Assembly: GCA_021730935.1 (NCBI GenBank)
Contig: JAKFYJ010000065.1
Span: 1 to 35,458 of the forward strand
Length of the DNA stretch: 35,458 nucleotides
DNA from: Elusimicrobiota bacterium
GTDB taxonomy: Bacteria > Elusimicrobiota > Elusimicrobia > 2-02-FULL-39-32
Direction: 5' to 3'
Below are positions 26,964 to 32,144 of this stretch, piece by piece. The position numbers and the translations under genes were made by a program. The stretch's first letter is position 1; each line of letters opens with the position of its first letter. The notes beneath the pieces are model-generated. The model saw only the letters and a list, made by a program, of their open reading frames with translations, was not told the DNA's origin and ran no database searches.

Positions 26964-28029
26964 ATCTTTGTTTTATCTCGATTATTTTGCGCCGGATCGG
27001 ATTCCTGAAAGCCCACAAAAGAATGATTGAATAAAATATCGCTATCTCAAAATTCTCCATCGGGCGCACCTGAAAATGACTCATCGGCCAGGAAACGAAC
27101 CAGTCGCTCAGCTTGAGGGCGCCTTCGCAAATGAGGGAAAAGGACGCTCCCAAAATATCTTCTAACTTATGATGGACAGAACCGAACACAAGGAACAAGA
27201 ATCCGCTCACCTGCAAAAAACTGAAATAGGGCACGAGGACGAGGTTCGCGACAATCGCAACGGGGCTGATGGTTCCAAACACCTGCGCGCTCAAAGGCAT
27301 CGTGCCGATCCACGCCGCGACCGAAATGGTGACGGATTCTTCAAGATAATAAATAATTTTATTTATAATGCCGGGCTTGGTTTCCGGGTCCAGTTCATCG
27401 GAACCATCTGAGGCCGCGGCCAGCATAAAGACTGAAACAAAAGAGAGCTGGAATCCAAGGTCAAAAAGCTGGAGAGGGTCATAGACCAGGATCAATATGG
27501 CGGACCAGGCAAGAGAGAGCAGGATCTCCGGTTCCCGACGGAAAAAAGCTCCTGAGAGGATCATGGAAACCATGATGGTGGCGCGGACGATGCTGGCGGA
27601 AGCGCCGGTGAGGAGGCAATAGAAAACGAGGAAAGCGATGGCGCAGGCGAAAAGAATTTTGCGGGGGACATAAAAAAGACGCAGGACGAAAACGGCGCAG
27701 AGGGCCACAAGCGCGATGTTTCCGCCGGAGATCGCAAGCAGATGAGCGGTGCCGGAATATGAAAAGCTTTGGCGCACATCATAAGGCATGTCTTTTTGGT
27801 TGCCCAAGAGCATGGCCTTGGCAATGGAGCCGAAACGCGGGGGAATTTGGCGGTCTATTTTTTCTTCCATCTTGAGACGGATGGGGTTCAAAACTTCGTC
27901 ACCGATGCCGGGCATGGAGCGATGGGCTCGAAGATAATCCCGTGCGGAGGCGGATAAAAATATTTTGGAACCGTAAAAAATTCCCACGCACAGGATCGCG
28001 GCAAACCACACGACGGGCCTCATTTTCAT
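26947..28029 (-). CDS. comEC: ComEC/Rec2-family competence membrane protein, short form
   Basis: The 360-residue membrane protein matches the central Competence domain of ComEC, which forms the inner-membrane channel for single-stranded DNA uptake. Motifs are the hydrophobic AKAMLLGN, then FSYSGTAHLLAISGGNIALV (family: SG-x-H-L-x-AISG-x-N/H), LTGASASIVRATIMVSM, and YDPLQLFDLGFQLSFVSV. Only about 75 residues precede the first motif, so the usual N-terminal OB domain (DUF4131) is missing. There is also no C-terminal metallo-beta-lactamase nuclease domain; the full family is about 700-800 residues. It overlaps comEA by 4 bp upstream. Whether the other domains are encoded elsewhere or have been lost cannot be told. 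Confidence 0.85.
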   Translation of the reverse strand: MKMRPVVWFAAILCVGIFYGSKIFLSASARDYLRAHRSMPGIGDEVLNPIRLKMEEKIDRQIPPRFGSIAKAMLLGNQKDMPYDVRQSFSYSGTAHLLAISGGNIALVALCAVFVLRLFYVPRKILFACAIAFLVFYCLLTGASASIVRATIMVSMILSGAFFRREPEILLSLAWSAILILVYDPLQLFDLGFQLSFVSVFMLAAASDGSDELDPETKPGIINKIIYYLEESVTISVAAWIGTMPLSAQVFGTISPVAIVANLVLVPYFSFLQVSGFLFLVFGSVHHKLEDILGASFSLICEGALKLSDWFVSWPMSHFQVRPMENFEIAIFYSIILLWAFRNPIRRKIIEIKQRYETAQ

Positions 28030-28409
28030 TGGAGCGTGAGGGACGATTCGATTTTTTTATAAAGTGAAATTGAAATGCCGTCCACTCGGAGCAGATCTGT
28101 CTTGTCTTTGAACGGGCCGTGCGTTGAACGATAATCAATGATTTTTTGAGCGGTGGGCTTTCCGATATAAGGAAGTTTTTCTAGCTCTTGGGCCGATGCC
28201 GCGTTTAAATTAAAAATTTTGGGCGCTTCGGGCTCTTTTGGGGAGGAACCCTTTCCTTCAGGTTTTGCTTTACCTTTGAATGCGGACTGAAAAACGGTTT
28301 TGGCAGGCAGGACTTCCTTGTTCAGGCGATAAAATTTGGCGGCCAGGCCCGTGATCAGGAGGAAAGCAAGGAGAGCGAACGCGAGTTTTTCTGTTTTGGC
28401 CATTTTCAT
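28026..28409 (-). CDS. comEA: ComEA-like helix-hairpin-helix DNA-binding protein
   Basis: This is a 127-residue protein from the ATG at 28409 (28403 is also possible; the frame opens at a TTG at 28436 with no support). The N-terminus is a single membrane anchor (KLAFALLAFLLITGLAAKF), so the protein is exported. After a proline/lysine-rich linker the C-terminus has two helix-hairpin-helix motifs: FNLNAASAQELEKLPYIGK, then LLRVDGISISLYKKI. ComEA binds double-stranded DNA outside the membrane and passes it to ComEC, the next gene. A TATAAT-like box lies at 28414-28419 (complement), very near the start codon. Confidence 0.85.
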   Translation of the reverse strand: MKMAKTEKLAFALLAFLLITGLAAKFYRLNKEVLPAKTVFQSAFKGKAKPEGKGSSPKEPEAPKIFNLNAASAQELEKLPYIGKPTAQKIIDYRSTHGPFKDKTDLLRVDGISISLYKKIESSLTLQ

Positions 28410-28429
28410 AAATATTATATTAAAAATAC

Positions 28430-28459
28430 TTGACAAAAGATGGCGGGATGGGGTAATAT
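28430..28459 (+). promoter_or_regulatory. predicted sigma70 promoter for a short RNA before smc
   Basis: TTGACA (28430-28435) and TAATAT (28454-28459) are separated by 18 bp. The promoter points toward smc, but an intrinsic terminator lies only about 60-85 bp downstream of the expected start site, near 28466. Confidence 0.6.
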
Positions 28460-28465
28460 ACCCGA

Positions 28466-28549
28466 AGACGCTAAATGAACAACCTTAAAGTGGTACTTTA
28501 GGTGATGCATTTGAGACCGGCCAAAGGGGTGATGGGCCGGTTTTTTATT
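28466..28549 (+). ncRNA. predicted structured short RNA or attenuated leader before smc
   Basis: The predicted transcript of about 80 nt begins after the promoter at 28430-28459. AAATG (28473-28477) pairs with CATTT (28508-28512) and encloses a long hairpin, ACCTTAAAGT / ACTTTAGGT (28482-28503) with a 3-nt loop and one bulge. A terminator hairpin follows. The nested stems suggest a structured RNA or riboswitch-like leader. It does not match a riboswitch class I know. Short ORFs inside (28475-28501, 28505-28555) are not convincing. Confidence 0.45.
28516..28549 (+). terminator. intrinsic terminator of the short RNA
   Basis: ACCGGCC (28516-28522) and GGCCGGT (28535-28541) form a perfect 7-bp GC-rich stem with a 12-base loop, followed by TTTTTT (28541-28546). 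This is a textbook rho-independent terminator. Confidence 0.75.
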
Positions 28550-28576
28550 GACTAAAATGTCGAATTCTTGTAAAGT
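28548..28576 (+). promoter_or_regulatory. predicted sigma70 promoter for smc
   Basis: TTGACT (28548-28553) starts right at the end of the terminator T tract and TAAAGT (28571-28576) lies 17 bp further. The smc ATG is at 28623 with GGGAGA as ribosome site. Confidence 0.55.
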
Positions 28577-28622
28577 AACAGACGGTAAAAGGCGGTAACT
28601 AAACGCTAATGGGAGATAAAAC

Positions 28623-31600
28623 ATGCACTTAAAAAGCATAGAGATGGTGGGTTTTAAATCCTTCGCCGACAAAACTGTCGTCGAGCTCAAGCCGGGCGTC
28701 TCCGGAATTGTGGGCCCGAACGGCTGCGGCAAATCCAACATCGTTGACGCGCTCCGCTGGTGCCTGGGGGAAATGTCCGCAAAATCCCTCCGATCCAAGC
28801 AGATGCTCGACGTCATCTTCGCAGGCGCTTCCGGGCGCGCCCCCATGAACATGTCCGAAGTGACGCTCACCTTCGACAACTCTCACGGACTCCTCCCGAT
28901 CGATTTCACGGAAATTCAGGTCACGCGCCGCCTTTTCAGGAGCGGCGAATCGGAATATTTTTTAAACCGCACGCAGTGCCGGCTCAAAGACATCAAAGAT
29001 TTGTTTATGGACACCGGCCTGCATGAAGGATACAGCATCCTCGCGCAGGGCGAAGTGGATTTCGTCATGCACGCCAAGCCCGAAGAGCGCAGACAGCTTT
29101 TCGAAGAAGCCGCCGGCATCACCAAATATAAAACCCGCAGGGAAGAAGCGCTCCGGAAACTCGAAAAAGTCGAACTTGATTTAAACCGCCTCAACGACCT
29201 GATCTCCGTCATCAAAGACCAGATGGGTTCTTTGGAAGCCGCCGCGCGCAAAGCGAAGCTTTTCCAGAAGGCCAAAGAGGAGCTGAAAAACCTCGAGGTG
29301 ACGGACGCGCTCCACAAGATGATTTCGTTGGATGAGCAGATGGCGCAGGCTGGAAAGAAGATGGAAGAGCTGAAAGCGGAACACGAGAAGGCGTCCACGG
29401 ACTTAAATTCCGCAGAAGCCGCTCTCACGCAATACCGCATTGACCAGGACGCGACGGAGAAAGAGCTTTATGAAAACCAGCTCGCGACCCTTGAGTTCGA
29501 CAAGGCCATCAACGCTTCCGACAACGCGGTGCGCACGGAAAAAGAACGCGAAAAGGAATTTTTGGAAACCGCGCAGAAGCTTGCGGAAAAAATAAAAATT
29601 TTGGAAGCGAGCGAAGTTGAGCTTCAGCAGAAATGCGACGAGGCCAGAAAAGAAATCGAGACGGCGTCGGAAAAAGTTGCCGCGCTCAAAGAGGCCTATG
29701 CCGCCGCGAAGCAAAACTGGGAAACCGCCAAGGGCGGACGAACTTTGATCGAAACGAAAAAGAACGAGATTTCAGCCGCCATCTTTAAAATCACTTCCGA
29801 AGTTTCCTCCGCAGGCAACGAAAAAAATTCTTTGAGCTCGCTCCAGATCCACAAGGAGTCGGAACTCGCGTCCTCCCTCCGGGAACTCACCAAAGCGGAA
29901 ACAGAAGCGGTCGCGATTGAGGCGGAAATCGCCGAGAAAAACATGAGCCTCGCCGAAATCTCAAACGGGCTTGCCGCGGCCAAGGAAGAGGCGCTCAAAG
30001 CCAAATCAGACCTGAAAGCCGGCGAAGAGCGGAGAGAATCTCTCCGCCACCAGACCCAGTCTCTCCGGATCGCCCTGGCCCACGCCCAGGCGCAGAAGAA
30101 AATTCTCGACTCCAAATTTCAGAAAGATCCCTATCACAAAGGGACGCAGAGCATCCTGAACCAGTCTCACCCGGGCCTGCACGGAGCGGTGGGCATCCTC
30201 ATGAAATATCCCGCTCATCTGGCTCATTGGGTGGAATCCATTTTGGGAAGCAAGATCAATTATCTGGTCTTTGAACGCACCGACCAGGCCAGGGACGCGC
30301 TCGCCTGGCTCAAAGAACATTCCCTGGGCCGCGCCCGATGCCTCATCCTGGAGAAAATTCCTGCGATCCAGGTTCCCGACCTCAGCCAGATGCCCAACGC
30401 CAATTCTCTCCTCAATTTTGTGCAGTGCGCTCCGGAACTGGACTCCCTCAAGAGATATCTTTTCGGCCAGGCGTTTTTGGCCGGAAACACGCTTTATGAC
30501 GCCGGAATCATTGACGGCGGAAGCGACCTCCCTCAGGTGGAGCCGGTCAAAGACGGCGAAGCCGTGGAAAGTTTCCAGAACGAATTTTTGGCGCTCTCCA
30601 ATTTGGAACGGGAAATCGCGGCCAACACGGATCTCCTTAAAAATGTCGAGAGAGATTTCTTCGGCGCGGAAATGGACTGCGAGAATTTGAAAACGGCTCT
30701 CGAAGAAAAAACCGCCCAGCTCGGGAAACACAGCCTTCAGGAAGAGCATTGGAAAGACATCGTCGCTCAAAAGAAGGAAGAGCTGGATCTCTCCCTGAGA
30801 GAAGCGGCTTTCCTCAAAGATTCCCAGGCGCAATATCAGAAAGATCTGGCAGACATTCACTCCAAGATCGAAACTTTCACCGCCATCGTCAGAGAGTCCA
30901 ACGAACTGCTTTCTCAAAAAGAAACGGAACGGACCGGGCTTCAATCCGAAATTGACGCGTCGCTCACCAAAGAACATGAGCTTGAAGTCATCTCCAAGGA
31001 AACCGAAATCCGTTTTGAAACTTTCCATTCGGATTATGAAAAACGCGAACAGTCTCTCCGGGGCTGGGAAGAACAGCTGAACCGTTCCGTCAAAGAACGG
31101 GAATCTTCTTCAGCCGAGATCGGGGATTATCATAAAAAAGCTGAAGCGGCCCTCAAACGGTCTTCCGAGGAAGCGGAAAACATCCTCAAACTCCAGGAAG
31201 AGAAAAACAAGACGTCCCAGATCATCGAGAGTCTCCTCAAAGTGAAAACGGAACGCGAAGAAAAGAACAAAGTTTTTCTGAGCGAGATTCAGAGCACGCG
31301 GGAACGGCAGACGGGACTGACCGAAACGCTTCACAGCATGGAGCTGGACCTCCGGACCCTCCAGTCCGACAAGAAAAATGTCCTTTCCAGAATGGAAGAG
31401 ACGTATCAGCTCACGCTTGAACAGCTTGAAAAAGAATTCAAGCCCGAGCCCGCTGACGCAGAAGAAATTGCGCGGCTCAGGAAACGCGTCGAATCCATGG
31501 CGAACTCAGTCAACCTGGAAGCCCCGGAACAGCATCAGGCTCTCTCGGAACGGTTCAATTTCCTGAACACTCAAACGCAGGATCTCGCCAAGGCGCGCGA

Positions 31601-32144
31601 AGATCTGAAAAGCGCGATCCAGCAGATCAACGGCACGACGCGGGAACAATTCAAGGAAAGCTTCACGAAAGTGCGCGAAAACTTCCGAAAAATTTACGGC
31701 ACCCTTTTTGAAGGCGGTGTGGCCGACCTGGTGTTCACCGACGAGAACAATCTCCTCGAGACCGGCATCGACATCGTGGCTCAGCCGCCCGGCAAAAAGC
31801 TTCAGAACATCGCTCTCCTCTCCGGCGGAGAAAAAGCGCTCACGGCGATTTCCCTCCTCTTCGCTTTCTTCATGGTCAAACCCTCACCCTTCTGCGTCCT
31901 GGACGAAGTCGACGCTCCCTGGGACCCCGCTAATGTGGGACGGTTCCTGAACCTCGTCAAAGAGTTCACCCAGCGCATCCAGTTCCTCGTGGTCACGCAC
32001 AACCCGCGCACCATGGAAATGGCGGATGTCCTTTATGGAGTGACCATGCAGGAGTTCGGAATCTCCAAAGTCCTCTCGATGAAGCTCAGAAAAGACTCGC
32101 CCAACACCGCCGTTCCCGTTAAAGAAGAATTAACGCCTGCATAA
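28623..32144 (+). CDS. smc: chromosome segregation protein SMC
   Basis: The 1173-residue ATPase folds into a long antiparallel coiled coil and organises and segregates the chromosome with ScpA and ScpB (neither is in the window). The N-terminal head has GPNGCGKSN (31-39, Walker A). Coiled coil runs from about 170 to 500, the hinge lies about 510-625, and the second coil about 660-1000. The C-terminal head has the ABC signature LLSGGEKALTAISLLFAFF near 1065 and Walker B with D-loop, FCVLDEVDAPWDPANV, near 1090-1105. The usual form is DEVDAPLDDANV, so Trp and Pro replace Leu and Asp here. GGGAGA precedes the ATG. Confidence 0.97.
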   Translation: MHLKSIEMVGFKSFADKTVVELKPGVSGIVGPNGCGKSNIVDALRWCLGEMSAKSLRSKQMLDVIFAGASGRAPMNMSEVTLTFDNSHGLLPIDFTEIQVTRRLFRSGESEYFLNRTQCRLKDIKDLFMDTGLHEGYSILAQGEVDFVMHAKPEERRQLFEEAAGITKYKTRREEALRKLEKVELDLNRLNDLISVIKDQMGSLEAAARKAKLFQKAKEELKNLEVTDALHKMISLDEQMAQAGKKMEELKAEHEKASTDLNSAEAALTQYRIDQDATEKELYENQLATLEFDKAINASDNAVRTEKEREKEFLETAQKLAEKIKILEASEVELQQKCDEARKEIETASEKVAALKEAYAAAKQNWETAKGGRTLIETKKNEISAAIFKITSEVSSAGNEKNSLSSLQIHKESELASSLRELTKAETEAVAIEAEIAEKNMSLAEISNGLAAAKEEALKAKSDLKAGEERRESLRHQTQSLRIALAHAQAQKKILDSKFQKDPYHKGTQSILNQSHPGLHGAVGILMKYPAHLAHWVESILGSKINYLVFERTDQARDALAWLKEHSLGRARCLILEKIPAIQVPDLSQMPNANSLLNFVQCAPELDSLKRYLFGQAFLAGNTLYDAGIIDGGSDLPQVEPVKDGEAVESFQNEFLALSNLEREIAANTDLLKNVERDFFGAEMDCENLKTALEEKTAQLGKHSLQEEHWKDIVAQKKEELDLSLREAAFLKDSQAQYQKDLADIHSKIETFTAIVRESNELLSQKETERTGLQSEIDASLTKEHELEVISKETEIRFETFHSDYEKREQSLRGWEEQLNRSVKERESSSAEIGDYHKKAEAALKRSSEEAENILKLQEEKNKTSQIIESLLKVKTEREEKNKVFLSEIQSTRERQTGLTETLHSMELDLRTLQSDKKNVLSRMEETYQLTLEQLEKEFKPEPADAEEIARLRKRVESMANSVNLEAPEQHQALSERFNFLNTQTQDLAKAREDLKSAIQQINGTTREQFKESFTKVRENFRKIYGTLFEGGVADLVFTDENNLLETGIDIVAQPPGKKLQNIALLSGGEKALTAISLLFAFFMVKPSPFCVLDEVDAPWDPANVGRFLNLVKEFTQRIQFLVVTHNPRTMEMADVLYGVTMQEFGISKVLSMKLRKDSPNTAVPVKEELTPA

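Follow-up and report, generated by a model that had tools for sequence, protein, structure and literature searches.

The smc promoter region

Upstream of smc in a bacterium of the phylum Elusimicrobiota, two promoters flank a short stretch that ends at a terminator, which raises the question of whether this stretch yields an RNA acting on its own, a leader that controls smc, or neither. To address it, we analyzed a contig of 35,458 nucleotides (hereafter the window, from genome G000, a metagenome-like draft in 96 contigs); features lie on the plus strand except where indicated. Analysis of the window recovered the first promoter (P1), a strong terminator and the second promoter (P2), all as given in a preliminary description. 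P1 (TTGACA-18-TAATAT, 28430–28459) matches the consensus at 10 of 12 positions. It is followed by a predicted RNA of ~80 nt (~82 nt, about 28465–28546), with its start placed from the -10 element and its end from the T tract. The intrinsic terminator (28516–28546) consists of the arms ACCGGCC (28516–28522) and GGCCGGT (28535–28541), which form seven pairs and one G-U around a 12-nt loop, and a run of six T (28541–28546); no other terminator of such strength occurs in the window. P2 (TTGACT-17-TAAAGT, 28548–28576, 9/12 consensus match) faces smc and starts at the T tract as described earlier, its -35 element beginning two bases past the six-T run. The smc gene (28623–32144) encodes a protein of 1173 amino acids with a PF02463 match (9.9e-69) and an SMC hinge. 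The upstream neighbor, a comEA-like helix-hairpin-helix gene (28026–28409, minus strand, ATG at 28409; PF12836, 3e-17), is divergent, which leaves the window with no other gene to be served by the terminator. By eye, a TATAAT faces this gene just before its start codon (28414–28419, minus strand); it has a poor -35 and is nearly back to back with P1.

The window was scanned on both strands for a composite of a promoter with at least 10 of 12 matches, a terminator 20–110 nt downstream and a second promoter on the T tract. The 35-kb sequence contains one instance, and 100 dinucleotide shuffles contain none, this chance test being made on the window sequence only. The promoters, the terminator, their conservation (see below) and their placement can be regarded as established at the level of sequence.

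Distribution and conservation of the unit

The unit is present in a single copy in its genome. Homologous units, likewise one per genome, precede smc in both congeneric genomes, G001 and G002 (74% and 72% identity, E values of 5.5e-7 and 5.9e-6, respectively). In G006, from another genus, TTGACA-17-TAAGAT is followed by a short, presumably transcribed segment, by the terminator stem of the window, which is also retained in G001 and G002, and by a P2 that starts on the T tract, while the RNA sequence is unrelated apart from the terminator. The upstream neighbor of smc in G006 is a transposase-like gene, not comEA, and retention of the layout despite this other neighbor indicates that the unit goes with smc. 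A covariance model of the unit, searched against 235 genomes of the class, found full homologues only in G000, G001 and G002; in G006 it matched just the half with the terminator. Among the additional matches to the model, the stronger ones that were aligned proved to be ordinary terminators.

A promoter at the P2 position was found in the family genomes examined, including G003, G004, G005, G007 and G008, where it is the single promoter and P1 is missing. Because P2 keeps the same spacing in these members, smc does not need P1. In the SMC tree, the four unit-bearing genomes fall into one group (support 73/67), consistent with a single change. P2 is probably the older smc promoter, to which the P1 unit was added; most likely, a single gain placed the unit upstream of P2 in the lineage that comprises this genus and the nearest neighbor genus among those sampled, or else the unit was lost in the sister branch. 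Separately, the sequence ahead of smc is longer by a few hundred bases in G008 (L029) than in the closely related G007 (L030), perhaps because of a mobile or repeat element.

Conservation within the unit was read from an alignment of G000, G001 and G002, and the strength of these counts is limited by the three sequences. In P1, the -35 element is identical at 6/6 positions (its TTGACA is present in G006 too), the -10 element at 4/6 and the spacer at 6/18. The T tract is identical at all six positions, and P2 at 5/6 positions of the -35 element and 8/17 of the spacer. Within the RNA, 16 of the 21 positions of a block at 28470–28490 (GCTAAATGAACAACCTTAAAG) are identical, and 8 of 23 in the 3' half of the leader. 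For comparison, third codon positions of smc are identical at 86/199 (0.43), and spacers at 0.33–0.47. The promoter, the terminator and the 21-nt piece of the RNA thus appear constrained, and the rest not visibly so; the hexamers of P2 are conserved like those of P1, in contrast to the spacers.

Folding of the RNA and readings of the unit

The ~82-nt RNA is predicted to fold at -25.3 kcal/mol (z = -2.5), with most of this contributed by the terminator; the leader alone has a z of -0.8, or -2.0 once trimmed. Of the nested stems proposed in the preliminary description, a stem is indeed predicted, but as a single irregular hairpin that differs from those predicted for G001 and G002. Conservation and covariation in relatives had been proposed as a check, with a divided outcome: the sequence is conserved in the close relatives, while covariation did not exceed that of shuffles (81% of cells paired, one pair changed on both sides), with low power from three sequences. 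Across the genomes compared, no conserved antiterminator pairing was found between the leader and the 5' arm of the terminator. The pairing probability of this arm with the leader is at most 0.10 in G000 and about 0 in G002, leaving it essentially unpaired in both until synthesis of the 3' arm; in G001, only two of its bases pair with the leader, at 0.69. Searches against Rfam returned no matches in the window, and the best match at a relaxed threshold scored 15.9 bits versus the 51.4 needed, which agrees with the earlier statement that the unit could not be assigned to a known class.

The earlier account had left the choice between a small RNA and a riboswitch-like leader. Its first half holds to the extent that the conserved hexamers, the 21-nt block, the terminator and the overlap with P2 point to a discrete short unit followed by smc's own promoter. 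The reading we favor, to which we give about an even chance, is that P1 would produce a ~80-nt RNA ending at its own strong intrinsic terminator, that the product itself matters, and that P2 would transcribe smc separately. We take the RNA to matter because its 21-nt segment seems to be under selection; it would be a small RNA that acts in trans and may encode a tiny peptide as well. We infer the transcription of the unit, the ends of the RNA and any function from sequence. At that level, the unit has both its own promoter and an intrinsic terminator, as expected of a trans-encoded sRNA, and it resembles intergenic sRNAs of this kind in size, sigma-70-type promoter, Rho-independent terminator, single copy and lineage-restricted distribution. 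It departs from them in that neither a target nor a chaperone site is known for it, its end lies on the promoter of the following gene, and no Rfam family matches it. Pairing of the RNA with the smc or dnaA leaders showed no excess over shuffles.

One alternative places the function in the arrangement itself, with the RNA as a by-product: polymerase from P1 would terminate on the -35 element of P2 and occlude it, or the terminator would insulate P2. All four genomes have in common P1, the stem, a T tract that leads into TTGAC(A/T) and near-constant spacing. Because the layout extends to G006, whose RNA sequence is unrelated, transcription from P1 may also affect P2. However, the 21-nt block in the RNA is conserved within the genus beyond the spacers, and the constant spacing may reflect mere common descent; we hold this alternative to be unlikely, though not remote.

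Equally doubtful in our estimate is a leader-peptide attenuator, in which a ribosome on a short open reading frame would cover the 5' arm of the terminator and allow read-through from P1, adding to smc expression when the leader is translated efficiently. A candidate frame, MNNLKVVL* (28475–28501), lies on the smc strand directly before smc. Its ATG and first codons align in three genomes (G001, MNNLKGVLEGFKG*; G002, MLNLKTLLEGFR*), and its stop codon abuts the stem in G001 and lies 3 nt before it in G002. In the window, however, the stop codon lies 14 nt before the stem, the ribosome-binding sites are weak, the frames differ in length (8, 13 and 12 codons) and show a mixed pattern of substitutions, and G006 has no such frame. 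A short frame followed by a terminator before a structural gene recalls the trp/his-type attenuators. The unit differs from them in having neither alternative hairpins nor a regulatory codon run (the frame contains no run of one amino acid), in the separate promoter of the gene after the terminator, and in the missing frame of G006.

That there is no functional unit at all, only a chance promoter and a terminator left over from an earlier upstream gene, is very improbable; the terminator of G006 could serve the co-directional transposase-like gene, but in the window, with its divergent upstream gene, nothing else needs this terminator, the hexamers are conserved, and the composite is unique against shuffles. 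Least credible of all, and already disfavored, is a riboswitch or other structured cis-regulator of smc, the second half of the earlier proposal, which has in its favor the predicted stems ahead of the terminator on the smc strand but lacks covariation (among three sequences), a structure kept across the three relatives, conserved leader-terminator pairing and an Rfam match, and is confined to one genus and one further genus. The unit is real and ordinary in kind, and is best read as a lineage-specific, unclassified and independent short transcription unit, whose product would be either a small RNA or else an abortive leader.

A repeat shared by the smc and dnaA leaders

Downstream of P2, the 5'UTR of smc contains 10-bp direct repeats (GACGGTAAAAGGCGGTAACTAA, 28581–28602) that also occur in the dnaA leader. 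The repeats read GACGGTAAAAGGCGGTAAC, with the repeat unit ATGGYAAAAG, and related repeats with the consensus GTAAAAGATGGTAAAAGATGGAC lie ahead of smc in several of the families that make up the class. Such repeats also precede dnaA, adjacent to DnaA boxes, in each of the eight family genomes in which dnaA was detected, and are degenerate in some of them. The orientation of the repeat in the leader never varies, for which reason its recognition at the RNA level may be considered too. A degenerate pattern searched without mismatches through the whole genome of the window matched at two places only, the smc and dnaA leaders, the latter at G000:C4:76406-76428 (L281, L327). A scan of 41 genomes with a sequence model gave 11 matches with E below 0.015, all at smc or dnaA, of which nine are training sequences or a near-identical dnaA copy from G002 and two are independent (smc of G010 and G037). 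The repeat was not found in most of the dnaA leaders sampled outside the window's family and families f6 and f12, and the literature searched yielded nothing relevant on an smc leader already known or on an operator common to dnaA and smc.

Several other features of these leaders were observed. In families f6 and f12 (L045, L047 and L080), the repeat GATGGCAAAAGATG occupies the same position as the smc ribosome-binding site and start codon. By eye, the smc promoters of families f8 and f13 (L055, L060, L063 and L079) show, between their -35 and -10 elements, the palindrome TTTCTCGACGAGAAA or something close to it, and a similar sequence (TTTCCGTCGAGAAA) is seen ahead of dnaA, in its leader, in the window's genome (L281). 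The same dnaA leader contains, again by eye, a hairpin resembling a terminator (AAAGGCCC-TGTTC-GGGCCTTT), which lies downstream of the promoter and upstream of the start codon.

MraZ was considered as the protein that binds the repeat. The mraZ promoters of the same genomes (L240, L225, L229, L231 and L227) carry MraZ-like boxes (GTGGGGAAAAGTGGGG) just past the -10 element, and the smc repeats resemble such boxes in that they are direct repeats spaced by 10 bp, lie a short way past the -10 element and contain AAAG and GG. The core shared by smc and dnaA is ATGGYAAAAGATGG, however, as against GTGGGGAAAAGTGGGG at the mraZ promoters, and the smc repeat is present in G010, a genome of 99% completeness in which no mraZ match was found. 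The assignment of the repeat as an MraZ box was rejected on these two grounds, which make MraZ an unlikely binder.

The two parts of the region can be joined in one scheme, in which smc would be controlled by the short transcript interfering at its promoter and by the repeat in its 5'UTR, an operator coupling replication initiation to chromosome organization through a regulator that is probably not MraZ. The two layers would differ in range, the transcript being lineage-specific and the repeat operator occurring in several families and shared essentially only with dnaA; we regard the combined scheme as a tentative one that is more likely wrong than right by a wide measure.

Whether small RNA or abortive leader, the P1 unit would add one to the lineage-specific regulators, notable for a termination site that lies on the smc promoter. 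The repeat common to smc and dnaA is the better lead and may be a control element. Such a shared element, if true, would link replication initiation with chromosome compaction across several families of one class; it would matter more than the P1 unit and would offer a concrete target for finding the regulator.
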